Below are positions 1-19,443 of a stretch of 22,405 nt of DNA, one piece after another (position 1 is the first letter of the stretch; every line of letters starts with the position of its first letter). Position numbers and translations under genes: made by a program. Below the pieces are notes generated by a model that was not told where the DNA came from, did no database searches, and was given only the letters and a program-made list of their open reading frames with translations. This DNA is from a virus, in IMG/VR virus record IMGVR_UViG_3300025082_000083, positions 1-22,405 of that record, one strand, 5' to 3'.

Positions 1-175
1 CTTGATAGGCCAGCCCATTCATATTACCGTGGTCTGTAAGCGCTAGCGCGTCCATCCCATTCTCATAAGCAAAATCCATATGGTCTTGCGGATACCCAAT
101 GGCATCAAAAATTGACCCCGCCACGCTATGGGCATGTAGCCCAACAAACTTCACTGCTGACTGTTTACGATTCAT
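1..175 (-). CDS. dnaE: DNA polymerase III alpha subunit (DnaE-type family C polymerase), N-terminal PHP domain, partial
   Basis: Only the first 58 codons are in the window; the gene continues past position 1. The visible residues form the start of the PHP domain that opens bacterial and phage DnaE polymerases: a beta strand followed by the metal-binding LHAHS motif (about residues 13-17), then the DALALTDHGNMNGL segment (about residues 41-54), which matches the conserved A-(I/L)-TDHGN-(M/L)-G stretch of DnaE. In this family the PHP domain binds metals and supports proofreading, and the following palm, fingers and thumb carry out replicative synthesis. The ATG at 175 overlaps the stop of the upstream gene as ATGA and has a good GAGGAGG Shine-Dalgarno. 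Because only the PHP start is visible, a stand-alone PHP phosphoesterase cannot be excluded, but the HGN region is DnaE-like. Confidence 0.8.
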   Translation of the reverse strand, partial: MNRKQSAVKFVGLHAHSVAGSIFDAIGYPQDHMDFAYENGMDALALTDHGNMNGLAYQ

Positions 176-1910: not shown

Positions 1911-1926
1911 TACTATTTTTTCATGC

Positions 1927-2829
1927 TCAAGAATCTTCCACCTCTTCCAACAACTTCTTAATATCTAGACCGGCGCAGTCAATCTTTGTTTTACTAACGT
2001 GATAGTGGCTTACGTATCCCTGGAAGTCTCCGTACGCTACGTTCTGTTCGTACTTGCGCGAGGTGGTTCCGAATTGATTAAGCGGAGCTTTATAGGGTAT
2101 GTCTGTCGCTTCATGAATAGCTGCCCATAAGGCCTTAAGCGCTTCCATCTGTACAGGATAGAATCCCAAAAATGGATCTAGCTGTTGCCCATGTACCCAA
2201 GCCCCTTCCACTATGGGTCGCTCGCCAAAACCGTTCTCCACATAGGTCGATTGATATTTAGGATAGTAGGCGTTAGAAATTTCCACCCCCACCGACGGTC
2301 GATTAGTACGAGAACTGCCAGCATGCCACCCAGCATGTTGCATGTCTAGAGTTTGATAAATGGTGCCATCGTTATCAATTAAAAAGTGCACCGAAATTCC
2401 CCGCTTATCTAATACTCTAGCGCACATCTGCGATGACAAACACACGTCCCAATGGTTAACGAAGTAACGAATCTTGCGCTTAGGGCGGCCGGCATAGCTG
2501 TAATAGGTCCCGGGACGTGCGGCGATCCCACCATCGTCCGACCACAAGACTACCTTGTCCCATTTGATGGGAGTGTTTTGACCGTTGTAAACAATGTAAT
2601 TTGAGTACTGTGGTTCTTCAGCTTGCTGTTCCTCAAGATGGGCCTGGCGCTCCGTCCACAGGCGCCGAAACGTCATGGGCCCGCAGAGACCATCCGCAAC
2701 AAGATCGCGTAGGCGCTGCCACTTTTTAATAGCCCTTACTAGTTTGTCATCAAAATACTTTTCCCCAAACCAACATGGCGCCCAGCCTAACTTTGCTGCC
2801 GAGGCCTGGTTGTAAAAATCTTTGTCCAT
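1927..2829 (-). CDS. N-acetylmuramoyl-L-alanine amidase endolysin with N-terminal peptidoglycan-binding domain
   Basis: This 300-residue endolysin would cut the amide bond between muramic acid and the peptide stem to lyse the host. Residues about 8-58 form a PG_binding_1 type module (FDDKLVRAIKKWQ ... ADGLCGPMTFRRL). After a Glu/Gln-rich linker, residues about 115-290 are an Amidase_2/T7-lysozyme type domain. Candidate zinc ligands are H126 in VNHWD and H277 plus C285 in HYHVSKTKIDC; the eight-residue spacing matches the H122/C130 pair of T7 lysozyme. H148 lies in the HFLIDNDGTIYQ segment, and the HAGWHAG and GVEI motifs are also typical. The ATG at 2829 has AAGGA about ten bases upstream. 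It sits between the GroES-like and Rossmann-like genes. No holin or classical spanin is recognised next to it. T7 lysozyme also inhibits T7 RNA polymerase, but no such polymerase is visible here. Confidence 0.92.
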   Translation of the reverse strand: MDKDFYNQASAAKLGWAPCWFGEKYFDDKLVRAIKKWQRLRDLVADGLCGPMTFRRLWTERQAHLEEQQAEEPQYSNYIVYNGQNTPIKWDKVVLWSDDGGIAARPGTYYSYAGRPKRKIRYFVNHWDVCLSSQMCARVLDKRGISVHFLIDNDGTIYQTLDMQHAGWHAGSSRTNRPSVGVEISNAYYPKYQSTYVENGFGERPIVEGAWVHGQQLDPFLGFYPVQMEALKALWAAIHEATDIPYKAPLNQFGTTSRKYEQNVAYGDFQGYVSHYHVSKTKIDCAGLDIKKLLEEVEDS

Positions 2830-2877
2830 GCATTGTTTTTCCTTCTTCGGCGTACTGTAATTAGTTCTTTAAATAGG

Positions 2878-3156
2878 TTAGAGAATTCCAATTACGTAGT
2901 TCTCAAGGACTACCTGCACTACCTCGTCTTTCAACATCACCTCTTCAACCATAGTTCGATCCACAATTAGCTCATGGTCAATCCATAATAGATTTTTAAA
3001 TTTTACATCTTCTGCCCAACCCTTGATGGTCACTACAGCGTGATTCTCTTCATTGGGTTTAAAATCTTCGGGTAAAACAATGCCACTTTCTAATTCGTTG
3101 GGTTTGATTGCTGCCATCTCTACATGAATGTAGCGATTCACTGGCGTAAACTTCAT
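2878..3156 (-). CDS. GroES/gp31-like co-chaperonin
   Basis: The predicted protein has 92 residues. I start it at the ATG at 3156, preceded by TAGGAG that overlaps the stop of the reductase gene, rather than at the upstream in-frame ATG at 3177, which lies inside that gene. The sequence opens MKFTPVNRYIHVEM, continues with a probable mobile loop ending in SGIVLPEDF (about residues 24-32), and ends LENYVIGIL. The order of N-terminal strand, flexible loop, all-beta body and C-terminal strand matches the GroES fold. Phage versions such as T4 gp31 replace host GroES so that GroEL can fold the capsid protein. The length is close to GroES (97) and shorter than gp31 (111). It lies between ribonucleotide reductase and endolysin genes. 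Confidence 0.78.
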   Translation of the reverse strand: MKFTPVNRYIHVEMAAIKPNELESGIVLPEDFKPNEENHAVVTIKGWAEDVKFKNLLWIDHELIVDRTMVEEVMLKDEVVQVVLENYVIGIL

Positions 3157-3164
3157 TTCTTCTC

Positions 3165-5132
3165 CTAAATTGTACACGTATCATTGGTACAAAACTTTTC
3201 TCCGGAGCCTTCCTCCTGGGTATCCATCCGCTGGAGGGGCTTCGCGGTCTTAATTCTCTTCTCATACTCCTCTTGAGTAATGGGCTCGTAGGGCGCTTGT
3301 TGGTACCCTGTCTCTTCATACTTCAAGAAAGACACGGACTTCAGCCGCGTCTCATACATTTCTAATGCGTTCTTAAGTTGAGGAGCCTCATTCTCTTGAA
3401 AGGTGACGGTTACTGACACTGAATTGTCGGCCCAATAATGCTGATATTGTGCCGCTATTTCTAACTGTTCCCACATTGTGACGTTCCGCTTACTCTTAAC
3501 GAAGTAGGGTTCGTGCACAGGAAATTCTACTACCATTGTGTTGGGAGAATAAAGATCCTTTTCCACTTTGTATCCCGCCTCTTTTAAGAACGCCAACGTG
3601 TGGGAGTCATTAGAGAATCGAATGCGTCGAATGTAATATTCACTCTCAGGGAAATGAATCCCAGGAGTCGATCCGTTGAGTAGTGACACCGTTCCCGATG
3701 GTTTAATTGACGTCATCCGGACGGAACGTGGAATGCACAACCAATTAGAGTATTCATCATCAAGTTCTTTGATATAATCGTATGCTTTGTCACACCAGTC
3801 ATACAAAGTACGGCGCCCAAACTTATTAAACGCCTGCACAACCCCTGACTGCGACAAACCAATTCGACGGTTCTTTAACATCTTGGCGTTGGTCTCAGGC
3901 CAGTGGGTGTTAGATAAAGTGATAGTCTTTCCATACAAATAAGCTATCTTAAGGGTCTTCAAATAATCTTCCAAGTCTTTGTGCTTGGCTGGGAAAGTTT
4001 CAACAAGACAGCACAGCTCGGCGTCTTCTAACTGCTGTTCGGAACAAGGGTTAAACCCCATCACATGTAGGTCGTCGTTTCTAATTCCATCTTTAAAGCG
4101 GCCGCGAGTGCGCGCGTTGTTCAACCAAATGTACCCGGGCTCTCCGTTTTTCTGACACTGTTCGGCGGCCCATGTATAGTCCATGCCCACATCAGCTACC
4201 ATAGAATTATTTGAACCCCATCGATGATGATACAGTTTCTCTTGATCATTCTTCATCTGAAGGTAATACATATCGTCATGCTTCCCCATCGCCAGGGCAG
4301 CAGATCGGCGTACGTTTCCGGCCACAACGCAACGTCCGATCAAGTTCTCCGTGTCTACGATATCTACTGATGTTATATCTTCTCCTACTTTCTTGGAGAA
4401 CAAGTTAGTTAAGTCATCATGCAGTTCCTTCAACGGCTTAAAGCCGCTAGACGTGCCACCGAAACCCAGAATGGGTGCACCCTCTGGGCGGATAGCAGAG
4501 TAATCAAACTTCGGGACTTTCTCCCCAAAAAAATAACCATCCAATAACATGTGCACAGAGTTTACCCATCCTTCGCGGGAGTCATCAATAATATGTATGT
4601 CATTGGTATACTCTGGCTCTTTAATCGTGACGCTTCCTTCTCCCTCGGTGTCAAAGCCTACGCCTACGCCGACCATCAACGCATCCATCATCCACGCAAA
4701 AAGATAGCCTCCCTTGTTCCCAAGATCGCGCGTGGAGCGGAAGGCACAATTAAACAAGCCGGCTGCGGTGCGCTCTTCAACAAATTTTGTTCCCATCATC
4801 CAGAGGCCGCGGCCGGGTGGAGTCCACTTCAAAGTGAACAAGCGATCATATGCGTTCTTGGCGGTGCTCTGTGCTTTTGCATCATTCCATTCTAACCCAA
4901 GCATAATCACATGCTCCTTCTGCATGTTGAACATTCCTTCAACCACTCGCCTACAGGTCTGCCACCATTCTTCGGTGCCTTCGGCGCCTTCTTCAAACTC
5001 ACTAAGGCGGCGGGCATACGTACGCTTAAAAGTAACGTAGCCGAGGGGCCCCCAGGGCACCTCCGCATCCTTATAGGGTTCAATAAAGGTATCTGACAAT
5101 CTAAATCTGCGAATGTTTTCTAATGTTCTCAT
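3165..5132 (-). CDS. nrdJ: Adenosylcobalamin-dependent (class II) ribonucleotide reductase, monomeric type
   Basis: The 655-residue enzyme reduces ribonucleotides to deoxyribonucleotides for phage DNA synthesis, using adenosylcobalamin to make a thiyl radical. It aligns along its length, by eye, with the Lactobacillus leichmannii triphosphate reductase: WGPLGYVTFKRTYAR near the start, LFNCAF with C129, GFGGTSSG, VVAGNVRRSA, QEKLYHHRW, and NPCSE at 361-365. C363 is the expected radical cysteine and E365 and N361 the catalytic partners. C374 pairs with C129 as the active-site disulfide; the 363-374 spacing equals 408-419 in the Lactobacillus enzyme. The C-terminal CTNDTC (648-653) is the expected re-reduction cysteine pair. 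It is about 85 residues shorter than the Lactobacillus protein. The ATG at 5132 overlaps the helicase stop as ATGA. No B12 biosynthesis gene is visible, so the cofactor would come from the host. Confidence 0.95.
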   Translation of the reverse strand: MRTLENIRRFRLSDTFIEPYKDAEVPWGPLGYVTFKRTYARRLSEFEEGAEGTEEWWQTCRRVVEGMFNMQKEHVIMLGLEWNDAKAQSTAKNAYDRLFTLKWTPPGRGLWMMGTKFVEERTAAGLFNCAFRSTRDLGNKGGYLFAWMMDALMVGVGVGFDTEGEGSVTIKEPEYTNDIHIIDDSREGWVNSVHMLLDGYFFGEKVPKFDYSAIRPEGAPILGFGGTSSGFKPLKELHDDLTNLFSKKVGEDITSVDIVDTENLIGRCVVAGNVRRSAALAMGKHDDMYYLQMKNDQEKLYHHRWGSNNSMVADVGMDYTWAAEQCQKNGEPGYIWLNNARTRGRFKDGIRNDDLHVMGFNPCSEQQLEDAELCCLVETFPAKHKDLEDYLKTLKIAYLYGKTITLSNTHWPETNAKMLKNRRIGLSQSGVVQAFNKFGRRTLYDWCDKAYDYIKELDDEYSNWLCIPRSVRMTSIKPSGTVSLLNGSTPGIHFPESEYYIRRIRFSNDSHTLAFLKEAGYKVEKDLYSPNTMVVEFPVHEPYFVKSKRNVTMWEQLEIAAQYQHYWADNSVSVTVTFQENEAPQLKNALEMYETRLKSVSFLKYEETGYQQAPYEPITQEEYEKRIKTAKPLQRMDTQEEGSGEKFCTNDTCTI

Positions 5133-6523
5133 GGTTTTACTACTCCTTTGCGTCTAAATTTTTCATAGGTCTTCTGCAGTAATTCTTTTTGCATCTTTGA
5201 ATCTAATACTACCGGATTTGCGGGCACTTGTGAAGTGCCGTTGGCAGCATTTGGTGTATTCAATACTTTAATATTTACATTGGCCGTCTGCATGAAGATG
5301 TTATACACATCTCCGTCCGGACCGTTCCTGTTCTTCGCCACAAAAAGCTTGCCAGTGTTGTTCTGTTTGTCTTTGATTGTGCGAGAGATGGAAAAAATAA
5401 AATCTGCAACAAAACACTTATTGAATGCTTCTGAAATTTGTTCCATAGTTATAACTTCTACGTTTAACCCAGAGCGATTAGTTTGAGATGCGGTCCAAAC
5501 CGGGCACTGGAAATCTGTTGCAATAGCGCGTAGCTCTTCATAAATAGACTCCAACTCCGTCCTTTTCTCTTTTCTTATTGTAACCGGCTTTAATAAATCT
5601 GCGTAGTCAACAATTATAAGCCCAGGATGAATTCCGCGCTTCTTTAATTTCTCTAGATGTGAACGAATAGTATTGGTGGAAGCAGACTTGGTAGCATATT
5701 CTTTGATAATAAGTTTCCCTTCTATCTCCTGTACCTGCTCAAAGATATCATCCTTAAAAGATGATAGATCGGAAAGAGGGTAGCCGGTGATGCAACTATC
5801 ATAGCGACATGCTATCACTGTCTCCTGTAATTCCAAAGTATAATGTACGACTGCCTTCTTTTCTTTCAAGGCTTGAGCCCCCAAGTGAACGAGGACCATG
5901 CTCTTGCCAGAGCCGGTGCTCGCGATCACGACGCCCAACTCACTCTTGCCTAGGCCGCCACCACTAATGGTATCAATCTCACTCCAGCCGGTGGTGACCG
6001 GGTTGCGGAAGCGTGGACGAAATCTTTCTTCAAAGTCTGCGAGGTAATCATAACCGAAATTACTATCGGAGCCAAGCTTAAGCGCATCATTGATAACTGT
6101 TGAAATCTCATCAAAGGAACAACTTTGTAGTAAGTCCACTGACTTAAGCATAGCTTCCTTAAGATTTTGTTTACGACAAAAATCTAGTGACGCTTCTTTA
6201 ATATAATCCGCGTCAGAAATCTCTTTTGTATGAATGCGTGCAAAGTATTCTCGTACCTGCTTTTGTGTTACTTCGTCTTCGTTTTCTAATTCGGTACGCA
6301 CTACAGCAATAATAGATTCAACCGACGGGTGCGTGCCATACTTGGTCCGAAATTCCACAATCTTTTGCACGAACACACGCAGATATTCTAGCTCTAAAAA
6401 ATTGACATCTAACACTTCGGTGATTTGATCTGCGAAGGGGCGATCCTCAAAAATTAACTGGACCAGTCCTTCTTGAAAAGCTTTGCCGTATCTTCCAAAG
6501 CTGGCGCCATTATCGTTGAGCAT
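5129..6523 (-). CDS. DnaB-family replicative DNA helicase
   Basis: The 464-residue protein is a RecA-fold hexameric helicase that unwinds the phage replication fork. I start it at the ATG at 6523, with AGAGGG five to six bases upstream; the in-frame GTG at 6529 abuts that Shine-Dalgarno and is less likely. Residues 1-150 are a helical N-terminal region; the ATPase domain begins near FRNPVTTGWSEID. Walker A is ASTGSGKS (about 201-208), followed by KAVVHYTLEL; Walker B is LIIVDYADLL (about 302-311), then WTASQTNRSG and KNRNGPDG, as in DnaB/gp41 type helicases. It is the first gene after the promoter at 6575-6548 and overlaps the reductase start. No separate primase is visible in the window. Confidence 0.9.
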   Translation of the reverse strand: MLNDNGASFGRYGKAFQEGLVQLIFEDRPFADQITEVLDVNFLELEYLRVFVQKIVEFRTKYGTHPSVESIIAVVRTELENEDEVTQKQVREYFARIHTKEISDADYIKEASLDFCRKQNLKEAMLKSVDLLQSCSFDEISTVINDALKLGSDSNFGYDYLADFEERFRPRFRNPVTTGWSEIDTISGGGLGKSELGVVIASTGSGKSMVLVHLGAQALKEKKAVVHYTLELQETVIACRYDSCITGYPLSDLSSFKDDIFEQVQEIEGKLIIKEYATKSASTNTIRSHLEKLKKRGIHPGLIIVDYADLLKPVTIRKEKRTELESIYEELRAIATDFQCPVWTASQTNRSGLNVEVITMEQISEAFNKCFVADFIFSISRTIKDKQNNTGKLFVAKNRNGPDGDVYNIFMQTANVNIKVLNTPNAANGTSQVPANPVVLDSKMQKELLQKTYEKFRRKGVVKP

Positions 6524-6547
6524 AAACACCCTCTGTTCCGTGTAGTA

Positions 6548-6575
6548 AGTATAACATTTGCCCTCCTAAAGTCAA
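6548..6575 (-). promoter_or_regulatory. sigma70-type promoter upstream of the helicase operon
   Basis: On the minus strand TTGACT (6575-6570) is followed after 16 bases by TATACT (6553-6548), one mismatch in each box from the sigma70 consensus. The start of transcription would fall near 6542, about 20 bases before the helicase ATG. The 77-base gap between the exonuclease and helicase genes is otherwise non-coding, which supports a real promoter. Confidence 0.75.
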
Positions 6576-6585
6576 CAAACTTTAG
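6566..6585. repeat. Perfect inverted repeat overlapping the -35 box, operator-like
   Basis: CTAAAGT (6566-6572) and ACTTTAG (6579-6585) form perfect seven-base arms around a six-base centre, CAACAA. The repeat covers the -35 hexamer of the helicase promoter and begins 15 bases after the exonuclease stop. No T-run follows it in the direction of transcription, so a repressor or activator site is more likely than a terminator. Confidence 0.55.
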
Positions 6586-6599
6586 TCTCAATTTATGAT

Positions 6600-7574
6600 T
6601 TATTCGCTCGACGCGTCAATGCATTCTCTCGTAATCTTATTAAGATGAGTACGCAGATCTTCCCAGTTTAATTCACCAAATCCATCATCACGCATCATGC
6701 CTAAAATCTCTGTTTTGTTGAACTCGCATTCAAAATTTTCTATTGAGAACCTCACATGGTCTTTGCCCTGCACTGACAGTTGCGGCGCGTACAATTGCAT
6801 CATCTTATAATTCTTCTCAACCAGCTTCTTATCTGCCACCACGCTGTTATAAAACTTCAGCTTGCTATTGGCGTGCTCACAGTGCTCCACTACGTCATCG
6901 AGAGTATAAAATTTTTCTTCTGCCAGGAACTCCAAACGCTTCTTGACTGTCGCAAGCCCGGCGCCCTTGATGCCTGCCAAATTATCAGAGGTATCTCCCA
7001 CGATGGCACGAGCCATCGCCATGTTAATGGGATGAATGCCATACTGTTCTACAATTCTATTCTTGTTAAGCATTTCCTTGGCCGTGGGGCGCCACAGCAC
7101 GGTCTCATCATCGCACAACTGCATGAAGTCCTTGTCGTTTGAAACGATAATCTTCTGCCACCCGTCAAAGTGAGACATCTGCGTGACGTAAGCAATGATA
7201 TCGTCGGCCTCTACCTCTTCAATCATCGCTTGAATGATCGGCATGTTGTTTAGATACTGAATGATCCTACTCTGCTGCCACATTTTATTACGCAACTCTT
7301 CATCTTCTGTGAGGTTGTGGAAGGCGCGGTTCAGCCGAATAGGTTTGCGACCTGCTTTGTAATTCTTGTCCATGGTCTTGCGCTTGCGTGAGCCGTTGGG
7401 ACCATCCCACACCACTACCACTTGGTCAGGGCGCGTGTCGCGCACAAGCTTCTGTAAGATTTTAATGAAACCCTTAAGTCCTCCAATCGGTTGCCCATTA
7501 GAGGAGATGCTAGGGTCTACGATGTACGCTCGCAAGTATGCGTTAAGCGCGTCAATAATTAATACTCTTTTCAT
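6600..7574 (-). CDS. 5'-3' exonuclease / flap endonuclease (T4 RNase H and PolI N-terminal type)
   Basis: The 324-residue nuclease should remove RNA primers or flaps during lagging-strand synthesis. It carries the acidic metal-binding residues of the FEN/PIN-like family in the usual order: D8 in VLIIDALNAYLRA, D57 in VVVWDGPNG, the EVEADD cluster (120-125), SNDKDF (145-150) and GDTSDN (193-198), followed by a helix-hairpin-helix-like GIKGAGLATVKK segment that binds DNA. The basic patch NYKAGRKPIR (about 71-80) fits the arch region. The length matches T4 RNase H (305). The ATG at 7574 overlaps the stop of the small upstream gene as ATGA. The family A polymerase in this window lacks such a domain, so this protein may supply the activity in trans. 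Confidence 0.92.
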   Translation of the reverse strand: MKRVLIIDALNAYLRAYIVDPSISSNGQPIGGLKGFIKILQKLVRDTRPDQVVVVWDGPNGSRKRKTMDKNYKAGRKPIRLNRAFHNLTEDEELRNKMWQQSRIIQYLNNMPIIQAMIEEVEADDIIAYVTQMSHFDGWQKIIVSNDKDFMQLCDDETVLWRPTAKEMLNKNRIVEQYGIHPINMAMARAIVGDTSDNLAGIKGAGLATVKKRLEFLAEEKFYTLDDVVEHCEHANSKLKFYNSVVADKKLVEKNYKMMQLYAPQLSVQGKDHVRFSIENFECEFNKTEILGMMRDDGFGELNWEDLRTHLNKITRECIDASSE

Positions 7575-7777
7575 TTGTTTAATACCTCAATTTGATCTCT
7601 ATAAATGTTTATTATATGGACAGACTCAGTTTTAAAACACCACATCTTGTCCATGGAGGATGGGTCGGAGGACTCTGCAGTTTCAATAATAAAACCGAGC
7701 CATCTTTCTGGGAGGTCTCCCACGATTCCAACTGCGCTGCCCGGATAGCGAACAGCCACCAAGTCTCCTACTTGCAA
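7571..7777 (-). CDS. Small SH3-like phage protein, function unknown
   Basis: The start is probably the TTG at 7777, giving 68 residues, because GGAGG (7790-7786) lies eight bases upstream; TTG codons further upstream lie before this Shine-Dalgarno. The protein begins M-Q-V-G-D-L-V-A-V-R-Y and has GIVGDLPERWLGFII. The pattern 'VGDLV..+ short strand + GIVGD' resembles small SH3/KOW-like beta-barrel proteins that occur often in tailed phages and usually lack a known role. It is the first gene after the composite terminator/promoter at 7845-7799 and overlaps the exonuclease start by ATGA. Confidence 0.65.
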   Translation of the reverse strand: MQVGDLVAVRYPGSAVGIVGDLPERWLGFIIETAESSDPSSMDKMWCFKTESVHIINIYRDQIEVLNK

Positions 7778-7785
7778 CTTCAGTT

Positions 7786-7790
7786 CCTCC
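7786..7790 (-). promoter_or_regulatory. Ribosome binding site fixing a TTG start at 7777
   Basis: Minus-strand GGAGG lies eight bases before the TTG at 7777. There is no ATG in a suitable position, so this site decides the start of the SH3-like gene. The predicted leader from the promoter above it is only about 30 bases. Confidence 0.6.
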
Positions 7791-7798
7791 AAAAGCAA

Positions 7799-7835
7799 CC
7801 CCCCCGAACACTATTATTATAGCGTGTCGGGGGGG
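7799..7835 (-). terminator. G/C-tract hairpin, terminator-like, with a promoter -10 box in its loop
   Basis: The left arm at 7799-7811 is seven C then GAACAC; the right arm at 7824-7835 is GTGTC then seven G. They pair completely except for one bulged A. The 12-base loop (7812-7823) contains most of the TATAAT box. Read as minus-strand RNA from the His-rich gene side, the hairpin is followed by UUGCUUUU, a moderate U-run, so it could end transcripts from the UvsX operon. The U-run is interrupted, so termination would be partial. Confidence 0.55.
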
Positions 7836-7845
7836 TGATTGTCAA
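7816..7845 (-). promoter_or_regulatory. Consensus sigma70 promoter upstream of the exonuclease operon
   Basis: TTGACA (7845-7840), an 18-base spacer and TATAAT (7821-7816) are both perfect consensus hexamers. Initiation would fall near 7811-7809, inside the downstream arm of the surrounding inverted repeat, so transcripts started here would not be able to form the hairpin. Confidence 0.85.
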
Positions 7846-7856
7846 GTACTTTCTGT

Positions 7857-8084
7857 CTACTTTCGCTTCTTTGGTTTCCAATGTCCCTTGATGTGACGGC
7901 CGTGCTTATCTACATGCGCCGGCGACCACACCCACACGGTGCCACGATGTCTGTGCTGGTGCACTACCTTCGCCCTACGAGGCGGCGGCGGGGCCTGTAC
8001 ATAACTCGGAACACCCTGGTGTAATGTGTGTGCGTGAGCATGTCCACACCCAAGTGACAGCGATAGAAAAATCATTGCTAACAT
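7857..8084 (-). CDS. Small His-rich exported protein, function unknown
   Basis: This 75-residue protein starts at 8084 with GGAGAG five bases upstream. Residues 1 to about 18 (MLAMIFLSLSLGCGHAHA) look like a signal peptide with possible cleavage after AHA; the SLGC sequence is a weak lipobox at best. The mature part has four consecutive prolines, many histidines (HAHAH, HQHRHRG, HGRHIKGHW) and a WVWSPAHVDKHGRHIKGHW segment that resembles the W-x-x-G-x-W / PGHW repeats of small bacterial envelope proteins. A basic KPKKRK tail ends it. It may bind metal in the periplasm or act at the envelope; a proline-rich outer-membrane spanin is an alternative but weakly supported. It is the last gene of the UvsX operon. 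Confidence 0.65.
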   Translation of the reverse strand: MLAMIFLSLSLGCGHAHAHTLHQGVPSYVQAPPPPRRAKVVHQHRHRGTVWVWSPAHVDKHGRHIKGHWKPKKRK

Positions 8085-8100
8085 ACTTTCTCTCCTTTTT

Positions 8101-9246
8101 TTAAATTTGATGAGGAACTGTTAAGTCCTCTGGATCTGCGTAAAACGCTTTGGCTTCACCTTCTCGACGGTCAAACTTCCTAACAATTTCCTCATCCATT
8201 AGACGCATGACGTTGCTACGAAATTCAGTGTCAGATGTAATTAGTTCCGTCCACTTAGATGGCTGAAACTTTTTAGTGTATCCGTCAGGCATTGCCAGGG
8301 TATACCACGCTCCTGCGCTGGTTAGATACTCGGAAGATTTTATGGCGTCGAACCAAGATTCTTCGTCGCGAATACCAACCTCTTCAGTGCCCCATAGAAT
8401 ACGGAACGCACACGATCTTCCCTGTGTTCCGAACCGAGACTTCTCCAACTTCACCTTCACTTCTGATCCAATTCTAAATCCCTTCTCGTCTTCGATAAAA
8501 GAACTCTTGGCCTTCCTACCTGTCAGCCAGATGCGCAGCGAATAAGAATAATGCATCGCCTTGCCTCCCGGCGTAATGTATGGCGTAGTCATCGCTACGA
8601 TACGAGCGTTGGGTCCTTGTGGGATGTTGGTCTTCAACTGATTCAGTACAATTAAAGTTGCGCGCTTATCAGCCACCGGGATGACCAGCTTTGACATTCC
8701 CTTTGCGAGAATGCGCGCCTTCATCGCCATCGTTGATTGGGGATTGAAATCTCCCTCAACGTCCGAGACAGCCGGGGTGAAGGCCAAAGAATCCCAGATG
8801 AAAACTAACTGTTCATCAGTAGCTCCCAACAGTTCCTCAATTGTCTCCAAGACAAACTCCACAGAGCTAGCTTGAATGTACATTAAGCGCTCTAGATTAC
8901 ACCCTGCTCGCGCTAGAAAATCTGGATCGATGGCTGACTCGGAATCAAAATATACAATCAATTTACCGCTCTTCTGGGCGTTGGCTGCAATCTGCGCAGC
9001 CATATAAGATTTACCTGTAGATTCTAGTCCTGCAATCTCCGTAACTTTTCCGACGGGGATGCCTGCCACACGTCCGCGACAGACTATGGAGTCCAACCAG
9101 CGGCTGCCGGTTGGGATCCATTCTTTCACTTCTGTTGGGTTATCGCCCGTCAAATCGTGCGCAACATTTCTGCCCGCCTTCTTATTAACGAGACTCATTA
9201 GGTCCTGCATTGCTACACGACCTGCCTTTACTTTCTTCTTCGCCAT
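8101..9246 (-). CDS. uvsX: UvsX/RecA-like recombinase
   Basis: The 381-residue protein is a strand-exchange ATPase for recombination-dependent replication and repair. Walker A is GLESTGKS (73-80); the catalytic-Glu region is VYFDSESAIDPDF (98-110), comparable to the DTE.S.D segment of RecA; Walker B is LVFIWDS (147-153). The ATLIVLNQLKTNI and TTPYITPGGKAMHYSYSLRIWL stretches match the RecA/UvsX loop L2 region and following core, and the C-terminal 120 residues are a variable extension. Its length is near T4 UvsX (391). The ATG at 9246 has AGAGGAAAGG upstream. The gene directly before it encodes a PC4-like ssDNA-binding protein, a natural partner on ssDNA. Confidence 0.93.
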   Translation of the reverse strand: MAKKKVKAGRVAMQDLMSLVNKKAGRNVAHDLTGDNPTEVKEWIPTGSRWLDSIVCRGRVAGIPVGKVTEIAGLESTGKSYMAAQIAANAQKSGKLIVYFDSESAIDPDFLARAGCNLERLMYIQASSVEFVLETIEELLGATDEQLVFIWDSLAFTPAVSDVEGDFNPQSTMAMKARILAKGMSKLVIPVADKRATLIVLNQLKTNIPQGPNARIVAMTTPYITPGGKAMHYSYSLRIWLTGRKAKSSFIEDEKGFRIGSEVKVKLEKSRFGTQGRSCAFRILWGTEEVGIRDEESWFDAIKSSEYLTSAGAWYTLAMPDGYTKKFQPSKWTELITSDTEFRSNVMRLMDEEIVRKFDRREGEAKAFYADPEDLTVPHQI

Positions 9247-9259
9247 TTTTCCTTTCCTC

Positions 9260-9481
9260 TTAAAACCTTTTAAGCTGTTCTACAACCGCTTTTAAGAAAG
9301 CCTCTTTTTCTTCCGCGGGAATAGTAACTCCCTTTTTGGTGGGTTTCATTTCTTTGCCGTTCCAATAATATTCACGAATGTCCAAAAACGAAAATCCATG
9401 ATAAGCTCTAGGCTCAATTCGTACTTCTGTTTTTTGAGCGTCAAACTCTCTTTGCTTTAAGCTCGCGTATTTCTTAGCCAT
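9260..9481 (-). CDS. PC4/YdbC-like ssDNA-binding protein
   Basis: This 73-residue protein begins at the ATG at 9481, with GGAGGG just upstream; an in-frame ATG at 9520 lies inside the preceding gene. Residues about 19-72 match the transcriptional coactivator p15 (PC4) domain: V-R-I-E-P-R-A-Y-H-G, then FLDIREYYW-NGKEMKPTKKG as the beta-ridge that holds single strands, then VTIPAEEKEAFLKAVVEQL as the dimerising helix. In bacteria and phages this fold binds ssDNA without sequence preference. It sits 13 bases before UvsX and after the ParB-fold gene, so a role in recombination, replication or transcription of the phage genome is likely. Confidence 0.8.
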   Translation of the reverse strand: MAKKYASLKQREFDAQKTEVRIEPRAYHGFSFLDIREYYWNGKEMKPTKKGVTIPAEEKEAFLKAVVEQLKRF

Positions 9482-9494
9482 TTTCCCTCCTTTA

Positions 9495-10655
9495 TTATAT
9501 CTTGTTGTACAAGGCATCATCTCGTGTAAAGACGAAGATGTCCTTCCCGGGCTGAGTCTTAGTAATTATAATTTCGTCCGGCGTCCACTTAACATACTTG
9601 TAAGAGGAGGTGCGGCCGCGGTTCTTATTCTTAAAAACCTCATTCCACTTTTCCATCAAGGCAGCTGCCCCATAAGTAGCATAATGATTGGCCGAGTCAA
9701 AACACAGAACTGTTGTCCAATTAGAGAGTTCCTTTAATAGCGGGTTGCTATCCCGCACTAATGCAAAGAATTCCTTCAAGCGTCTGAGGCCTTCCTCGCC
9801 ACTAGGAATTCGATTCTGGCTAATGTGAATGAAGGCAGTAACCGCTTCTAATGCAGAGACAGGTATCTCGTCAATATTAAGGAAAGTCGCCTTGATAATA
9901 TCAACGGCAGTCGATATATTGGGGGCTCTTTTGAGGCCCCATTTTACTTCCTTGTGGTCTCCTCCTACCGAACGGATGACCCGCTGCAGCGTTCCGATCC
10001 CCTCGATAAGAGGATTAGTAGAACTCTGATTGGCGTGATCAAGCGAGAACCCGCTAGCGTTAGCAATACTCCATGTATCGCATGCTTGATTGTGGCGCGC
10101 GTGCTTCTGATCTAACAACTGCTGCAGAAATTTATCGTACGATGAAATGGCAGCATTGTTTTTGTCTTGCGCATTAAAAAGGCGCCGGCTTTCTTCGGCG
10201 TTTTTCACCACACGAACCGAAGCCGGAACCATAAACACCCCGTTGAGATAAGCCGCGGTAGAGCGACCACCCCCATTGCGAATGATATAAACGTCCTCCT
10301 CGATGATGTAATCTATATCAATGGCTTCGAACTGCATTACATCAAAGTGTTTTGCAATCGAAAGGATTTTACTATGGCGACTTCGCTGCGTGAGGGCATT
10401 CCTCTGGCCATGGTCCTCCCGAATTTCTGCTGTTCTAATATCAAACAGCGGCATCGGGTACCCCTTTACAAAGATGCCAGCGAACGTGGGCAGCAAGCGT
10501 GGTGCCGTCTGCTTTGTCTTCCATTCATCGAATTCTTCGCGAATACGCGGATTCTCAGAGATGTTTTCTTCAAGAGTATATCGGATTGTCTTGTGGGCCG
10601 TCGCCTGCCGATATTGGGGAGTCACGTCTGACGTGTATTGTGGTTTTAGATTCAT
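9495..10655 (-). CDS. ParB/sulfiredoxin-fold nuclease-like protein
   Basis: A 386-residue protein, first in its operon. Residues about 60-175 look like a ParB/Srx-like domain: a strand with FVKGYPMPLFDIRTAEI, then IDYIIEEDVYIIRNGGGRSTAAYLNG, where the usual DG.HR.AA box of ParB appears as NGGGRSTAAY, then VPASVRVVKNAEESRRLFNAQDKNN. The C-terminal two hundred residues are mostly helical and match nothing I know. In phages such domains occur in DNA-binding regulators or nucleases; the changed box (no His) leaves catalysis uncertain. The ATG at 10655 has TAGGAG six bases upstream. The 13-base gap before the PC4-like gene suggests co-expression. Confidence 0.72.
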   Translation of the reverse strand: MNLKPQYTSDVTPQYRQATAHKTIRYTLEENISENPRIREEFDEWKTKQTAPRLLPTFAGIFVKGYPMPLFDIRTAEIREDHGQRNALTQRSRHSKILSIAKHFDVMQFEAIDIDYIIEEDVYIIRNGGGRSTAAYLNGVFMVPASVRVVKNAEESRRLFNAQDKNNAAISSYDKFLQQLLDQKHARHNQACDTWSIANASGFSLDHANQSSTNPLIEGIGTLQRVIRSVGGDHKEVKWGLKRAPNISTAVDIIKATFLNIDEIPVSALEAVTAFIHISQNRIPSGEEGLRRLKEFFALVRDSNPLLKELSNWTTVLCFDSANHYATYGAAALMEKWNEVFKNKNRGRTSSYKYVKWTPDEIIITKTQPGKDIFVFTRDDALYNKI

Positions 10656-10691
10656 AATTGCTCCTATAATTTAATTTATCTAAATTTGTTT

Positions 10692-10712
10692 AGTACGAAG
10701 CTATCTCGTACT
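10692..10712 (-). promoter_or_regulatory. 5'-terminal stem-loop in the ParB-UvsX operon leader
   Basis: AGTACGA and TCGTACT form a perfect seven-base-pair stem with a seven-base loop, read on the minus strand from 10712 to 10692. It begins within about a base of the predicted transcription start, and lies about 37 bases before the ParB-fold start codon. A 5'-end stem of this kind typically protects mRNA from decay, but could also be an operator. Confidence 0.55.
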
Positions 10713-10717
10713 TCACA

Positions 10718-10746
10718 AGTATAACACAGAACAGTGTCTATGTCAA
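10718..10746 (-). promoter_or_regulatory. sigma70 promoter of the ParB-PC4-UvsX operon
   Basis: TTGACA (10746-10741), a 17-base spacer and TATACT (10723-10718) give a near-perfect sigma70 promoter. The spacer contains ACAC-N6-GTGT (10724-10737), a small palindrome that could be an operator half-site pair. The promoter lies just after the stop of the outer-membrane protein gene. Confidence 0.85.
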
Positions 10747-10752
10747 AGCTTT

Positions 10753-11271
10753 TTACCAGTTGACGCCGGTGGTGATAGCACCGCGCCAGTAATCGTTAAT
10801 GTCTGGGACATAAACGAAGTGAATAGGCACGCTAAATACGCCTGCCTGTTGTGTCCAGCCAAGGGCTGTTACCAAGTGGAAGAAGTTGTCTTCTTCGGCT
10901 GGGTCATAAACTGTTGCAGTCGCTCCGACTGCTACTTGAAGTGCGTCATTAACTTCAAACCCTACTAGGCCACTGACCGAGGGAACAATGACGCTCTGTT
11001 CTAAGCCGCTAATTACTACATTCTCGATGAAAAGAAGATCCAGCCAATCTCCTCCATCCATTGTCTGCTGAAGTTCAAAACCTATGGCGAACATGTGGGG
11101 ACTCTCTAGTCTATCAGTATCGTCGCCATTGTTGAGGTAGTTGTATCCAAACCGCAATCCTTGACGACCTTCCCAGGCCAACGCATCGTCAGCCAGGTCT
11201 GTCACATCGTGAGCCGTTGCTGGATTTGATAATCCCAGACACAACAGCCCCATCAAAATCTTCTTAATCAT
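10753..11271 (-). CDS. Probable outer-membrane beta-barrel protein
   Basis: The 172-residue protein starts at 11271 with AAGGAG upstream. Residues 1-20 are a clear Sec signal peptide: two lysines, a hydrophobic core (ILMGLLCLGL) and an ATA cleavage site before HDVTD. The rest is alternating hydrophobic/polar strands (GLRFGYNYL, HMFAIGFELQQ, GLVGFEVNDALQVAVGATATVY, FSVPIHFVYV) and it ends in tryptophan (TTGVNW). A C-terminal aromatic residue is the BAM insertion signal of Gram-negative outer-membrane proteins. The size fits an eight-stranded barrel such as OmpX/Ail/OmpW-like proteins. It follows the terminator after the SSB gene. A phage-encoded barrel could alter the host surface, for instance to block superinfection; that role is inference. 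Confidence 0.75.
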   Translation of the reverse strand: MIKKILMGLLCLGLSNPATAHDVTDLADDALAWEGRQGLRFGYNYLNNGDDTDRLESPHMFAIGFELQQTMDGGDWLDLLFIENVVISGLEQSVIVPSVSGLVGFEVNDALQVAVGATATVYDPAEEDNFFHLVTALGWTQQAGVFSVPIHFVYVPDINDYWRGAITTGVNW

Positions 11272-11275
11272 TCTC

Positions 11276-11509
11276 TTACTCCTTTAATTGATTATATCGT
11301 CGTGGTTTGAAAATATGCTCTCGCATATCGTAAGTTGTGTGCTGACTTTCAATGGATGGAATGTATGAATTTTTCACCATTTTATACGACGTAGCATTCA
11401 TACACCCAAAACCTGCGGCCGCCAACAAATTGTTTACCTCATTATAGTTTAATCCGGCCCGGATTGCTGAGGCTGCTATCAGACGTTCCACTGGCATCTT
11501 TTTTGCCAT
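11276..11509 (-). CDS. Small hypothetical protein
   Basis: This 77-residue protein has an ATG at 11509 with AAGGAG eight bases upstream and a stop seven bases before the start of the outer-membrane protein gene. It is basic, with an N-terminal helical segment (VERLIAASAIRAGLNYNEVNNLLAAAGFG) followed by NATSYKMVKNSYIPSI. The spacing of two helices around a turn resembles a helix-turn-helix, so DNA binding is possible, but no family is recognised. It lies only 14 bases after the T-run of the terminator and has no promoter that I can see, so it depends on read-through from the SSB promoter. Confidence 0.65.
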   Translation of the reverse strand: MAKKMPVERLIAASAIRAGLNYNEVNNLLAAAGFGCMNATSYKMVKNSYIPSIESQHTTYDMREHIFKPRRYNQLKE

Positions 11510-11523
11510 TTTCTCTTCTCCTT

Positions 11524-11556
11524 AAAAAAACGTGAGGCACCTGTTCCCCGTGCCTC
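11524..11556 (-). terminator. Intrinsic terminator after the ssDNA-binding protein gene
   Basis: On the minus strand GAGGCAC (11556-11550) and GTGCCTC (11540-11534) form a perfect seven-base-pair stem with a nine-base loop, followed after ACG by seven T (11530-11524). It lies 17 bases after the SSB stop. Downstream genes follow at once, so it probably lowers rather than abolishes their expression, leaving SSB as the abundant product. Confidence 0.88.
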
Positions 11557-11572
11557 CCTGCGGGACAAGCCA

Positions 11573-12346
11573 TTAACCAGACATCAATTCATCAAAGGCG
11601 CGATCAACATCACTCTTAGGACCGGCGCCGTATCTGGCAGTCTCAGAAGAACGACCTTCAGCAGATTTATCGCTGGACAGTTGTTCATCGAGAATTGCGT
11701 TGACCTGCTCGGGGCTGAGTCGCTCAAAGAGAGACTCAAAATCAGGCATACGATCAAGGAGGGCGGGGATCGCATCCTTGTCCTCAAGCAACGGCGAAGT
11801 ATTACGACGCATCTTTAGGCTTGTTTGAGGGTAAGCACCGGGTTTAGTGGGCTTAGTGTATGTTAGTGTGATATCGGTTCCCTCTTGTATGTCAGTGACA
11901 TCACCATACTCGGGATCGAGGATATATCCAAGCAACAATTCGTAGGCAGTCTTTCCGTATCCATATACCTTAATGCCCTCCTCTTCTCGACCCCGTACAA
12001 CGACAGGCGAAAAGTACCGTTGGCGTACAAAGAGTGACTTTGCAAGCTTCTTACTTTCCTCATCGTTGTTGTCGCTTCCTTCGCGCCATAGCGCAGAAGC
12101 GAATTCACAAATTGGGCAATGCTCACCATAGTTTCGCTTCGGACATAGAATGCCTCCGCGGTGCTCACCCACATTATAGTGGAAGAACATTTCCTTTAGT
12201 GGATCACCATCCGACGTCGGGATAATACGAATGTCCGTATCTCCGTCCTCCGGTCTAAACCAAACGGAGTTTCCATTTCCGTTTGCATCATATTCGCCGC
12301 GTAGTTGTTTGAGCTTGCGGCGCATCAGCTCCATATCAATTCCCAT
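11573..12346 (-). CDS. gp32-like single-stranded DNA-binding protein
   Basis: The 257-residue protein matches the T4 gp32 type of SSB. The N-terminal residues about 5-20 are basic and helical, as in the cooperativity region. The core holds a zinc motif: H62, then C68, C77 and C80 (HRGGILCPK ... EHCPICEFASALWRE), comparable to H64/C77/C87/C90 of gp32. The OB-like region continues through VKVYGYGKTAYELLLGYI and a YTKPTKPG stretch. The C-terminal tail is acidic and disordered with a conserved end (DVDRAFDELMSG), as expected for the part that recruits replication partners. The ATG at 12346 has AAGGAGA eight bases upstream. It has its own promoter and terminator, which fits a protein needed in large amounts. 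Confidence 0.92.
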   Translation of the reverse strand: MGIDMELMRRKLKQLRGEYDANGNGNSVWFRPEDGDTDIRIIPTSDGDPLKEMFFHYNVGEHRGGILCPKRNYGEHCPICEFASALWREGSDNNDEESKKLAKSLFVRQRYFSPVVVRGREEEGIKVYGYGKTAYELLLGYILDPEYGDVTDIQEGTDITLTYTKPTKPGAYPQTSLKMRRNTSPLLEDKDAIPALLDRMPDFESLFERLSPEQVNAILDEQLSSDKSAEGRSSETARYGAGPKSDVDRAFDELMSG

Positions 12347-12369
12347 GTTATATCTCCTTATGTATGGGT

Positions 12370-12392
12370 GACAATAAGCGTCCCTTACTGTC
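12370..12392 (-). promoter_or_regulatory. 5'-terminal stem-loop in the SSB leader
   Basis: GACAGTAAG and CTTATTGTC form a nine-base-pair stem with one G-U wobble and a five-base loop, read on the minus strand from 12392 to 12370. It begins at or next to the predicted transcription start of the SSB promoter and ends about 23 bases before the start codon. It resembles mRNA-stabilising 5' stem-loops; T4 gp32 is also controlled through its mRNA leader, so autoregulation is conceivable. Confidence 0.55.
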
Positions 12393-12396
12393 TTAT

Positions 12397-12425
12397 ACTA
12401 TACCACTCTCGACGTAGCATGTCAA
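12397..12425 (-). promoter_or_regulatory. sigma70 promoter of the SSB gene
   Basis: TTGACA (12425-12420), a 17-base spacer and TATAGT (12402-12397) form a near-consensus promoter. The TGA inside the -35 hexamer is the stop codon of the upstream tubulin-like gene, so the two features share bases. The predicted start is near 12391. Confidence 0.87.
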
Positions 12426-13264
12426 GAGTTTTCTTGTACTACGTTAGTATGGGCAACGCAGAACCCAAAGTCTTGTGTGTGTTCGGTTTCGTATATGGCA
12501 TACGAAATCTTTTTAAAGGCATTCCGTGGCTTGTCTTTCAGTTGATCTACAATTTGTTTGTGCAAGCTGCCCTCCTTCGCCAACCTTTCATTGTTTATAC
12601 ATAAATAATAACATAAGTCGCGAGGAGTGTCAAGGTCAAAAAGCCATTTTTCTTCTAAATTTTTCATGTTCAGCATGGCCACACTGCGGATGCGATTAAT
12701 CTCGGCCGGCCGAGCCATCACTCCCACTTCCGGCTCTGCATGGGCGAAGTAATTAAGGTAGTGCGCAGTTGAAAAAATGGAGGAATTCAGCCGATCAAAA
12801 TAGCTTTTAATAGGAACTTCCCCCAGCGCATCTTCTATGCTCATGTTGGATAATAAAGTGATAGAGTTAAACACACCGGAGCGCGCATACTCTTGCAGCA
12901 CCCCATACACTACGTTTTCAATCAACTTGGGAATACCGGTTAAAAGAGTAGTGTCTGGTTTAATATAGAATACATCAACCTTCTTGTGTTTCAACTGCTC
13001 CAACACAGCCAATGAATAATTGGAACTATAAGAAGAGCCCATTATAAATACTTGGACATGATCGTCCACGGTAGAGAAAAACTTTGTCAAGTCCGGAGGT
13101 TGATTTTCGTATTCCTCTGGTTCTTCAAAACGTTTTAATTTGAATTTATACTTAGACGTACGAGCTACCTTATCATTCAACACATAAACATTATATTGAG
13201 GTGTTTTGCTAAATTTTTCTGCAATGGCCGAAGCACCATTGCCGATACCAATTATAGAAATCAT
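12422..13264 (-). CDS. Divergent FtsZ/tubulin-superfamily-like protein (tentative)
   Basis: The 280-residue protein does not match a named family by exact motif, but its elements run in FtsZ order. It opens with a strand and glycine loop, SIIGIGNGASAIAEKF (compare VIGVGGGG.NAV), then YNVYVLND (compare .FIAINTD). At about residues 72-90 is VQVFIMGSSYSSNYSLAVLEQL, in the place of the tubulin signature GGGTG(T/S)G, here degenerate. Then come DVFYIKPDTTLL (compare VGVVTKPF), SITLLSNMSIEDAL (compare LIVIPND.LL), a helix YFDRLNSSIFSTAHYLNYF and PAEINRIRSVAML (compare INVDFADVRTVM). Known phage relatives are PhuZ and TubZ. The loss of the GGGTG box may weaken GTP binding. The ATG overlaps the polymerase stop (ATGA). 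A plain Rossmann dinucleotide-binding protein is the alternative. Confidence 0.5.
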   Translation of the reverse strand: MISIIGIGNGASAIAEKFSKTPQYNVYVLNDKVARTSKYKFKLKRFEEPEEYENQPPDLTKFFSTVDDHVQVFIMGSSYSSNYSLAVLEQLKHKKVDVFYIKPDTTLLTGIPKLIENVVYGVLQEYARSGVFNSITLLSNMSIEDALGEVPIKSYFDRLNSSIFSTAHYLNYFAHAEPEVGVMARPAEINRIRSVAMLNMKNLEEKWLFDLDTPRDLCYYLCINNERLAKEGSLHKQIVDQLKDKPRNAFKKISYAIYETEHTQDFGFCVAHTNVVQENS

Positions 13265-14445
13265 AAGTTTAAATCTTTTAAATCCAAATAGTTTTTGCCG
13301 GCGCGCAAATTAACAAGGTAGTTCCCAATTTGATTGTCTGCGAAAGTATCTCGTATTTCCGCAATCATCTCCCGTTCTTCATCAGCCATGTCGATCACTA
13401 ATTCATCATGCACGATGTGTGACACAAACGATTTCTTTCCTTCAAGCATCTTATCTACCACGACTGCGCGCTCTATTACCAAATCGGCGGTGGTGCTTTG
13501 GATTAAATAGTTCAGTGCTTTACGTTTGTCCACCTTAATCTTGCGCCCAAATGGTGTTAAAATATGATCATCCCGGTACCAAGCCTCTAATACCTTTTCT
13601 CTATCATAAACCTCCGTTTCAATAGCTTCAGACTCGGGGTTGTACAGCCAACTGAACAATAAGGTTTTAGCCTCTTCTCGCGTCACGCCCCCACCAAAAA
13701 TGTTTTTTACGTTCCATTGATGAATGTCTTGCGAAGGCTGCGCCTGTTCAGAGAGGCCCATCAACGTTCTCACCTCGGCCCCATTATAATCCAAAGACAA
13801 AAACCAATCGTTCTTCGGTTTTATTAATTGACGAAATCCACGCTGGGAAGTTAGGATGGGAAATGATTCTGGGAATGTGGTTAGGCGACCGGTCACTGTA
13901 CCAAATAAATTATAATTGATATAATGCGGGCCCTCCAATAATTTCTTGGCCATGGCTCGGGATGGAGTGCTATAAAAAAGTTCTTTACAGTTGTCTGGAT
14001 TAAGCTGCAGTGTTTGAAATTTTATCTTATACAACAGTTTGGTAGCATCCATGAGGTGCTCGTAGCACGGCGGCTTATCATATGTCGTAAGCACATGTTC
14101 AGTAATTTTATTTTTTATCTCGCAAAACTCTTTTAGAAAGTCTTCTGGTACCAACTCAAAAATACAGTGGTCTCGCAAGTTGATTTTAGCAATTCGAAAG
14201 GATTGTGCATAAGCTTTTAATCGTCGCTGCGCTTTTGCTAGCGGATCTTTAAGAGACGCGGGTGCTATTCTTTCTAGGGGCGCGCCCTCGCAGTACAAGG
14301 AGGCATATTCAATGTTCCCATCCGATAAAAACCCAGTATATTTCCATGTTTGTGCTATCTCTTCGGGCCAATTATCAAAATATAACTGGCCGTTCGCATA
14401 AACACCGACACATTCTGTTTTATCATCCAACGCTTGAAAAATCAC
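13261..14445 (-). CDS. Family A DNA polymerase (PolI-type polymerase domain)
   Basis: The 394-residue protein is a compact PolI-type polymerase. Motifs are intact: TGRLT (185-189); motif A SLDYNGAEVRTL with D219, E224 and R226; the O-helix with R256, K260, F264 and Y268 (TREEAKTLLFSWLYN); and motif C VHDE with H346, D347, E348. The Phe at the O-helix discrimination position matches PolI. No 3'-5' proofreading domain with its DxE motif precedes the polymerase core; the first 150 residues are a short unrecognised region rich in Asp/Glu and aromatics. The start is a GTG at 14445 with CGGGG five bases upstream; a stop lies nine codons upstream. It follows the tail genes closely and is coupled to the tubulin-like gene. 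It may act in repair, primer extension or replication beside the DnaE-type enzyme. Confidence 0.92.
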   Translation of the reverse strand: MIFQALDDKTECVGVYANGQLYFDNWPEEIAQTWKYTGFLSDGNIEYASLYCEGAPLERIAPASLKDPLAKAQRRLKAYAQSFRIAKINLRDHCIFELVPEDFLKEFCEIKNKITEHVLTTYDKPPCYEHLMDATKLLYKIKFQTLQLNPDNCKELFYSTPSRAMAKKLLEGPHYINYNLFGTVTGRLTTFPESFPILTSQRGFRQLIKPKNDWFLSLDYNGAEVRTLMGLSEQAQPSQDIHQWNVKNIFGGGVTREEAKTLLFSWLYNPESEAIETEVYDREKVLEAWYRDDHILTPFGRKIKVDKRKALNYLIQSTTADLVIERAVVVDKMLEGKKSFVSHIVHDELVIDMADEEREMIAEIRDTFADNQIGNYLVNLRAGKNYLDLKDLNL

Positions 14446-14459
14446 ATCAACCCCGTTCT

Positions 14460-15695: not shown

Positions 15696-15698
15696 TTT

Positions 15699-19103: not shown

Positions 19104-19104
19104 T

Positions 19105-19443
19105 TTATGCCAGCCCCAATGCCTTTAGGGCGCTTTCCACATTTATTGGAATATAAATTACAGCGCCATTTTTAATATCAGCTTCGCAGGGAATTGCGTT
19201 CCACCATGCAATCACCCACCAGAAACGCGAATCCCCATAATGTTGGTGTGCCAGTTTATATAGGCGGTCTCCGTATTTCCAAATGTGCGCATTAGTGATC
19301 GTATGTGCCCGCTCAGACGTAGTAGGATTTTTGAGCCGCGGCGTCTCGTAATGCTTTATCACTTTAAGTCCCCTCGATTCGCGAAGTGGCTCGTAATATT
19401 CACTAGCGTTGGTTAAAATTCTAAATTTATTATATCTTCCCAT
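19105..19443 (-). CDS. LysM-domain baseplate protein (gp53-like)
   Basis: This 112-residue protein starts at 19443, directly after the stop of the preceding gene, with GAGGA nine bases upstream. Residues about 50-100 form a LysM-like motif: HIWKYGDRLYKLAHQHYGDSRFWWVIAWWN, then a strand with NGAVIYIPIN. The 'W..GDRLYKLA..HYGD...WWVI' pattern is typical of tail-assembly LysM proteins such as T4 gp53 and Mu-like gpX, which in myophages join the wedge or hub rather than bind cell wall. The small size, the basic N-terminus and the position between two large tail genes support this role. Confidence 0.82.
   Translation of the reverse strand: MGRYNKFRILTNASEYYEPLRESRGLKVIKHYETPRLKNPTTSERAHTITNAHIWKYGDRLYKLAHQHYGDSRFWWVIAWWNAIPCEADIKNGAVIYIPINVESALKALGLA

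Follow-up and report, generated by a model that had tools for sequence, protein, structure and literature searches.

How do phages keep apart two groups of genes that run in the same direction when almost no intergenic DNA lies between them? The question is raised by a viral record of 22,405 bases, which is called the window here. Its minus strand carries, in this order, a gp32-like gene, further ORFs, uvsX, a small ORF, the element described below, another small ORF and a 5'-3' exonuclease gene. The UvsX/RecA-like recombinase gene of the upstream operon (8101..9246, minus strand) matched Pfam RecA with an E value of 1e-34. Between uvsX and the element, the ORF list holds a small ORF of 75 aa (7857..8084, minus), which had no Pfam match above the cut-off and at whose place the relatives L008 and L013 have partly similar DNA. 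Behind the element lies a small gene of family D4 (7571..7792, minus, starting at TTG 7792 or TTG 7777), for which the Pfam search gave no match, and the next gene in the downstream operon is the 5'-3' exonuclease gene (6600..7574, minus; Pfam 5_3_exonuc_N, E 2.4e-31). The original prediction had placed a promoter inside a terminator-like hairpin at this site, so that transcripts from upstream might stop while those started inside would escape.

Structure of the element in the window

The element was read directly from the sequence on the minus strand, between the small ORF on the uvsX side and the downstream small gene. In the promoter scan and by sequence reading, its -35 box TTGACA (7840..7845) lies just outside a hairpin and its -10 box TATAAT (7816..7821) in the hairpin loop. 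The spacer between the two boxes is 18 nt and the sigma-70 match is 12/12, the only such match among the 46 found in bases 1-20000. The left (5') arm CCCCCCCGACAC (7824..7835), located by RNA folding and sequence reading, falls within the promoter spacer, and the right (3') arm GTGTTCGGGGGGG (7799..7811, by sequence reading) contains G7. Promoter geometry puts the predicted transcription start at 7809..7811, about 5-7 nt past the -10 box and on the first bases of the right arm. The arm is followed by a U-rich tract, TTGCTTTT (7791..7798), which has 6 T of 8, interrupted, and is the predicted termination zone by its sequence and by the T-rich tracts of relatives; then comes GGAGG (7786..7790), an alternative Shine-Dalgarno sequence 8 nt before TTG 7777. 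The nested arrangement was thus found as predicted, including the 12-base inverted repeat, which has one bulged T in its right arm, and the placing of the inner start within the second arm agrees with the promoter geometry.

Folding of the RNA from 7850 to 7780 gave -32.2 kcal/mol, compared with -17.7 (sd 2.77) for 200 shuffles, corresponding to a z-score of -5.2, and none of the 200 shuffles folded as well as the real sequence. The hairpin has 8 G-C pairs, C or G runs of at least 6 occur nowhere in the window but in its arms (C7 and G7), and its stem region is the most stable among the 41 nonredundant elements examined below. Such a G7/C7 stem, the extreme of the family, could hinder promoter opening. 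A composite scanner, which asked for a promoter match of 10/12 or better, a hairpin enclosing the -10 box and at least 5 T of 8, gave one site in the real window and 13 sites in total in 200 dinucleotide shuffles of it (0.07 per window). The standard terminator scan considered loops of 8 bases or fewer and therefore left the hairpin unlisted. No Rfam match was obtained for the window at the gathering threshold.

Other sites were noticed around gp32. The gp32 promoter (TTGACA-17-TATAGT, window 12429-12405, minus) has an inverted repeat over its -35 box, ACTCTTGA...TCGAGAGT, whose counterparts in relatives are ACTCTTGA...TCAAGAGT (L011) and ACCCTTGA...TCAAGGGT (L031); these arms seem to covary too, but have no T-tract. 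A hairpin in the gp32 leader was seen around AAGGGACGCTT (12392-12370, minus); in L010, L011, L031, L043 and L060, a similar promoter is followed by AAGGAACGCTT or AAGGAAAGCTT. It is possibly a regulatory leader akin to that of T4 gene 32. The terminator 3' of gp32 (11556-11534, minus), GAGGCAC...GTGCCTC followed by ACGTTTTTTT, looks ordinary; with its nine-base loop it escaped the standard scan, which stops at loops of 8.

Conservation beside uvsX in related phages

For comparison, 80 UvsX loci were taken from the viral collection, the best 80 of 592 confirmed. Two of them (L074 and L077) had a flank of less than 120 nt after uvsX and were left out, giving 78 readable loci. These were searched by promoter and not by hairpin, for a match of 10/12 or better no further than about 350 nt from the uvsX stop codon. 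Such a match was present in 66 of the 78 loci, among them one in L019 that is not the element; the copy of the element in L019 lies 1,572 nt downstream by the hairpin scanner, and the elements of L019 and L071 were taken from the results of that scanner. Four loci (L044, L058, L075 and L076) have the promoter with TATTCT as the -10 box. Altogether, the promoter stands at this place in 71 of the 78 readable relatives (from the best 80 of 592). Of those 71, 68 have a hairpin enclosing the -10 box (stem of at least 6 with at least 4 G-C), and 62 of those 68 also have a T-tract (at least 5 T of 8) behind the hairpin. Ten of the 78 are without the hairpin layout: seven have no element, and three (L007, L023 and L046) have the promoter with a weak or missing stem. 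By eye, L031 and L034 carry a promoter-like match without hairpin; L047, L049, L053 and L078 have no element and an exonuclease almost directly after uvsX; and no element was seen in the 494 nt of L012. Because ten of the 78 readable relatives are without the hairpin layout, insulation is not essential.

The composite scanner found 91 sites with a hairpin around the -10 box in 758,913 bases, 58 of them with at least 5 T of 8, while ten shuffles of the same bases gave 5-17 sites (mean 10.2) and 0-5 (mean 1.1) with a T-tract. When matches to TTGACN...TATANT were compared within the same loci, a stem was found in 35 of 36 nonredundant elements and at 0 of 116 other matches. The pairing was analysed in 68 elements (67 relatives and the window), reduced to 41 nonredundant ones at 85% identity, a set without the four loci whose -10 box is TATTCT. 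The arms covary: the duplex of a spacer with its own arm averaged -20.2 kcal/mol, compared with -13.8 kcal/mol with the arms of other elements (n=41). In 28 of the 41 elements, own pairing was better than 90% or more of the swaps, and in 39 it was better than at least half of them; shuffled spacers paired equally well in 1.3% of trials. This comparison speaks for the promoter-inside-terminator model of the original prediction. A chance origin of the element was ruled out by the fold z-score, the shuffles of the window and of the loci, and the 0/116 other promoters.

Predicted overlap with the ribosome-binding site

A GGAGG-like core was found past the -10 box in 40 of the 41 nonredundant elements; the exception, L014, has no such core by the pattern used and was excluded from the core counts. 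In computed folding, this core was less than 0.2 unpaired in read-through RNA, that is, inside the hairpin, in 36 of the 40 elements. The predicted mean unpaired fraction was 0.04 in read-through RNA versus 0.50 in internally started RNA (n=40), and the predicted gain in accessibility was greater than 0.4 in 25 elements and 0.4 or less in 15. A start codon follows 3-17 nt past the core in 38 of 40. The eight bases past the core contain 5.3 T on average, compared with 2.35 in 96 control Shine-Dalgarno spacers from the same loci, and at least 5 T occurred in 29 of 40 elements versus 4 of 96 control spacers (Fisher p 2e-16, the rows being not fully independent). The T content of these spacers and the 0/116 other promoter matches support the original prediction. 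Going beyond it, the right arm appears in most nonredundant relatives to serve the next gene as its Shine-Dalgarno sequence, with the T-tract filling the space up to the start codon.

These results bear on the reading that the hairpin does no more than mask the ribosome-binding site of read-through RNA, in the manner of T4 gene e, with no transcription stop and with the T-rich stretch as a mere spacer. The right arm, as a Shine-Dalgarno sequence in most nonredundant relatives, fits such a role, and the hairpins of the T4 genes e, soc, 49 and I-TevI act on translation, as stated in an extract of PMC3014915. However, the T content of the spacers is far above that of the control spacers, and the tract begins at the stem, as in terminators. 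Moreover, the hidden site is the weaker part in the window. We therefore consider hiding without termination unlikely.

As for the window, its terminator and promoter parts appear clear from the sequence. The ribosome-site part is uncertain because there is a second GGAGG beyond the hairpin. This GGAGG was predicted to be 0.51-0.63 unpaired in read-through RNA versus 0.25-0.28 in internally started RNA, which runs opposite to the family and counts against the ribosome-site part there. The G7 run was 0.00 unpaired in read-through RNA versus 0.30 in internally started RNA, and its predicted duplex with the anti-Shine-Dalgarno sequence has -10.8 kcal/mol, so the G7 in the right arm may also serve as a Shine-Dalgarno sequence. 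TTG 7792 begins 6 nt past it, matching the family layout, which would hold in the window if G7 is the Shine-Dalgarno sequence for this start.

Genes behind the element

An ORF was called behind 65 of the 68 elements, and none for L003, L057 and L063. The downstream ORFs formed seven families with 35, 13, 7, 4, 3, 2 and 1 members, which have no mutual BLAST similarity at E 1e-3. Pfam searches with one member of each identified a dCMP/cytidine deaminase (35 members), the UV endonuclease UvdE (13), a 5'-3' exonuclease (7, family D3) and a pyrimidine-dimer glycosylase (2), and gave no match above the cut-off for the family of the window (4) and two other small families. An exonuclease homologue thus stands directly behind 7 of the 65 elements with a called ORF. 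More generally, the slot behind uvsX (L007, L023, L065 and others) often holds DNA-repair or nucleotide genes such as UvdE, pyrimidine-dimer glycosylase and deaminase.

In the pairs L052/L054, L040/L073 and L025/L071, identity continues through the element to its 3' edge or to the start codon and then stops. A block of about 4.7 kb (roughly 12446-7786) is common to the window and L002, with 99-100% identity in 300-base bins inside this block and 61-95% in bins outside it; BLAST gave 86.7% overall over 13.1 kb. The lower boundary is at 7785, directly past the element, GGAGG at 7786..7790 being the last shared bases, and the upper boundary is patchy and near the gp32 promoter. Window positions 7786-12446 thus look like a mosaic block, bounded by the element on one side and by the neighbourhood of the gp32 promoter on the other. 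The 3' edge of the element, on which the original prediction was silent, appears to be a gene-exchange junction in four phage pairs, with assembly chimerism possible for single pairs.

Occurrence beyond uvsX loci

When viral contigs were searched for CCTCC...TATAAT...GGAGGNTTTT, at least 120 stretches matched. A scan with TAATAT replacing TATAAT (63 stretches) served poorly as a control, since TAATAT is part of TATAATAT and many sites fit either motif; the spacing of the -35 box was used as the test instead. The 139 loci from the motif and control scans gave at least 125 matches, 76 of them nonredundant among the matches listed. In this listed set, a -35 box of at least 5/6 stood at 16-18 nt in 43 of the 76 nonredundant sites versus 1 of 76 at 24-26 nt. 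UvsX was not detected upstream of 24 of 43 sites among the matches listed, within the 3,000 nt or less that were searched (less than 150 nt at four sites). Three of those 24 (L136, L158 and L202) resemble truncated uvsX loci by the next gene, and the 22 with a called ORF fell into 18 families, again among the matches listed. In one of these families, at L181 position 1623, the same layout lies upstream of an ORF that looks, by eye, like an RNA polymerase sigma factor.

As for named phages, Staphylococcus phage vB_SscM-1 has one site, and its record is identical to L191 over 3,001 bases. Named phages with a UvsX match were all below 60% identity in 1501 records, the top row being a Microcystis phage at 32.6%. 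Phage 515A1, for which an RNA-seq map has been published according to an extract of the source, had one weak site with a T-tract in the 98,000 of 148,511 bases scanned. The scan of T5 (50,000 of 121,750 bases) gave one match with a hairpin around the -10 box and none with a T-tract. The element as a general feature of phages was ruled out by these two.

Within single genomes, three long contigs (338,870 bases) had one T-tract element each, at uvsX, and a dispersed repeat within one genome was ruled out by this. A second composite site, away from uvsX and with 4 T of 8, was seen at L127 1083 on the minus strand (G002 ~81083); it consists of TTGACA, the arm GCCTCTACTG, TATACT and the matching arm. 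These counts matter for the reading that the element persists chiefly because it serves recombination in gene swaps, like the PeSL (promoter-early stem-loops) cassettes discussed below, with regulation secondary. Seven unrelated downstream families and identity that ends at the 3' edge in four pairs would be expected of such a site. However, homologous recombination needs neither compensatory arm changes nor a T-tract, and the element is not dispersed, the 4-T candidate in G002 standing beside the single T-tract elements of the three contigs. A role mainly in recombination is improbable.

Another possibility is that the inverted repeat is a DNA operator, with a repressor or activator covering the -10 box by binding both arms. 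A repressor would be expected at such a dyad, whose centre is the -10 box, and the arms are long and perfect in many relatives. However, the arm sequences change (C7/G7, GCCTCCC/GGGAGGC, CCCCCTCAA/TTGAGGGGG, CCTGATCA/TGATCAGG) while their complementarity is kept, the position of the stem and the length of the loop vary across relatives, the right arm is mostly Shine-Dalgarno-like, and the T-tract lies on one side only. We regard an operator as very improbable. The suggestion in the original prediction that the pure G and C runs could be a protein-binding site was not borne out either: of the elements examined, only those of the window and L002 have C7/G7 arms, and it is the pairing that is kept instead.

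Discussion

Our results point to a compact transcription insulator, which would end transcripts from upstream and keep the next gene from being translated from those that read through, while its own promoter escapes both; we give this reading a probability of about three in four. Polymerase coming from the uvsX operon would copy both arms, and the RNA would fold into a very stable hairpin with a U-rich tract behind it, where a good part of upstream transcription would stop. In RNA that reads through, the right arm would stay paired, as computed by folding, and would probably hide the Shine-Dalgarno sequence of the next gene in most nonredundant relatives. Host sigma-70 polymerase would bind the -35/-10 pair, with the -10 box in the DNA of the loop. 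RNA from this inner promoter would start at the right arm without the left arm, form no hairpin, pass the U-tract and have its ribosome-binding site exposed. Termination, initiation at 7809-7811 and translational hiding are what we infer from sequence. It would follow that the next gene depends on its own promoter even with both operons co-directional. The element would also be a slot behind which genes are exchanged, because the drivers of the next gene lie upstream of its start codon within about 50-60 bases.

That a terminated polymerase stays on the DNA and restarts at the overlapping promoter, the element coupling rather than separating the operons, is hardly credible: after termination, polymerase is able in vitro to diffuse and to reinitiate close by, with a dependence on terminator-promoter distance expected by the authors (extract of PMC6978380), and here both overlap, but we found no evidence for restart, which is compatible with the insulator reading.

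How does such an insulator relate to known systems? A PeSL cassette combines a sigma-70-like promoter and a stem-loop terminator in one short cassette, and there are many copies per genome. PeSL cassettes have reportedly been described in T4-type phages, RB49/phi1 and others, by Arbiol in 2010 and Comeau in 2014. According to an extract of PMC4503421, they stand at places of intense gene shuffling. By its sequence, the element likewise joins a sigma-70-like promoter and a stem-loop terminator in one cassette, and it resembles PeSL in being a gene-exchange point; unlike PeSL, it occurs about once per contig (three contigs, 338,870 bases). In RB49 (104,018 of 164,018 bases), a separate terminator precedes each of four strict promoters. 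A hairpin around a -10-like box was listed by the scanner in 14 rows for the same stretch, most of them with few T behind it and three with at least 5 T of 8; only one of the three, at position 3201 of AY343333, has a 12/12 promoter and a T-tract directly behind the stem. In contrast to RB49, the overlap with a T-tract is the rule in the element, and its right arm usually doubles as the Shine-Dalgarno sequence.

In T4 gene e, and also in soc, 49 and I-TevI, long upstream transcripts hide the ribosome site. The late promoters of gene e lie in the 5' strand of the hairpin, and internally started transcripts without this strand are translated (both from an extract of PMC3014915). The element is similar in that the -10 box of its promoter lies in the DNA of the hairpin loop, and its escape at translation would follow the same logic. 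It is different in that gene e uses late promoters as a timing switch, whereas the element has a host-type sigma-70 promoter and a T-tract in one hairpin. Past nrdD in phage T5 (AY543070), an annotated terminator (55694-55729) and promoter (55708-55782) overlap by 22 bases. As in the element, a terminator and the next promoter are packed between co-directional genes, but by eye the T5 -10 box lies beyond the hairpin. By analogy, the element would work like a PeSL joined with the switch of gene e. We do not class it as a PeSL because PeSL occur in many copies. A literature search on overlapping promoters and terminators found no description of the element; the defining PeSL papers lay outside its scope and absence from print is not claimed.

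A wider reading, for which we see even chances, is that this is a widespread three-in-one phage element, in which one hairpin lets promoter, intrinsic terminator and ribosome-binding site share a single stretch of 50-60 bases. It would form a self-contained gene socket: any gene behind it would be shielded from transcription and translation coming from upstream, would have a host-type promoter of its own and could be exchanged at its start codon. The element would have arisen in, or spread to, many unrelated phages, at other places as well as beside uvsX. If true, promoter and terminator annotation would have to be corrected, since finders limited to short hairpin loops miss the element, and synthetic biology would gain a small insulated expression part. 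For the phages themselves, it would show how co-directional genes are separated with almost no intergenic DNA, and it would account for the sites of gene swaps near uvsX in this uncultured group.
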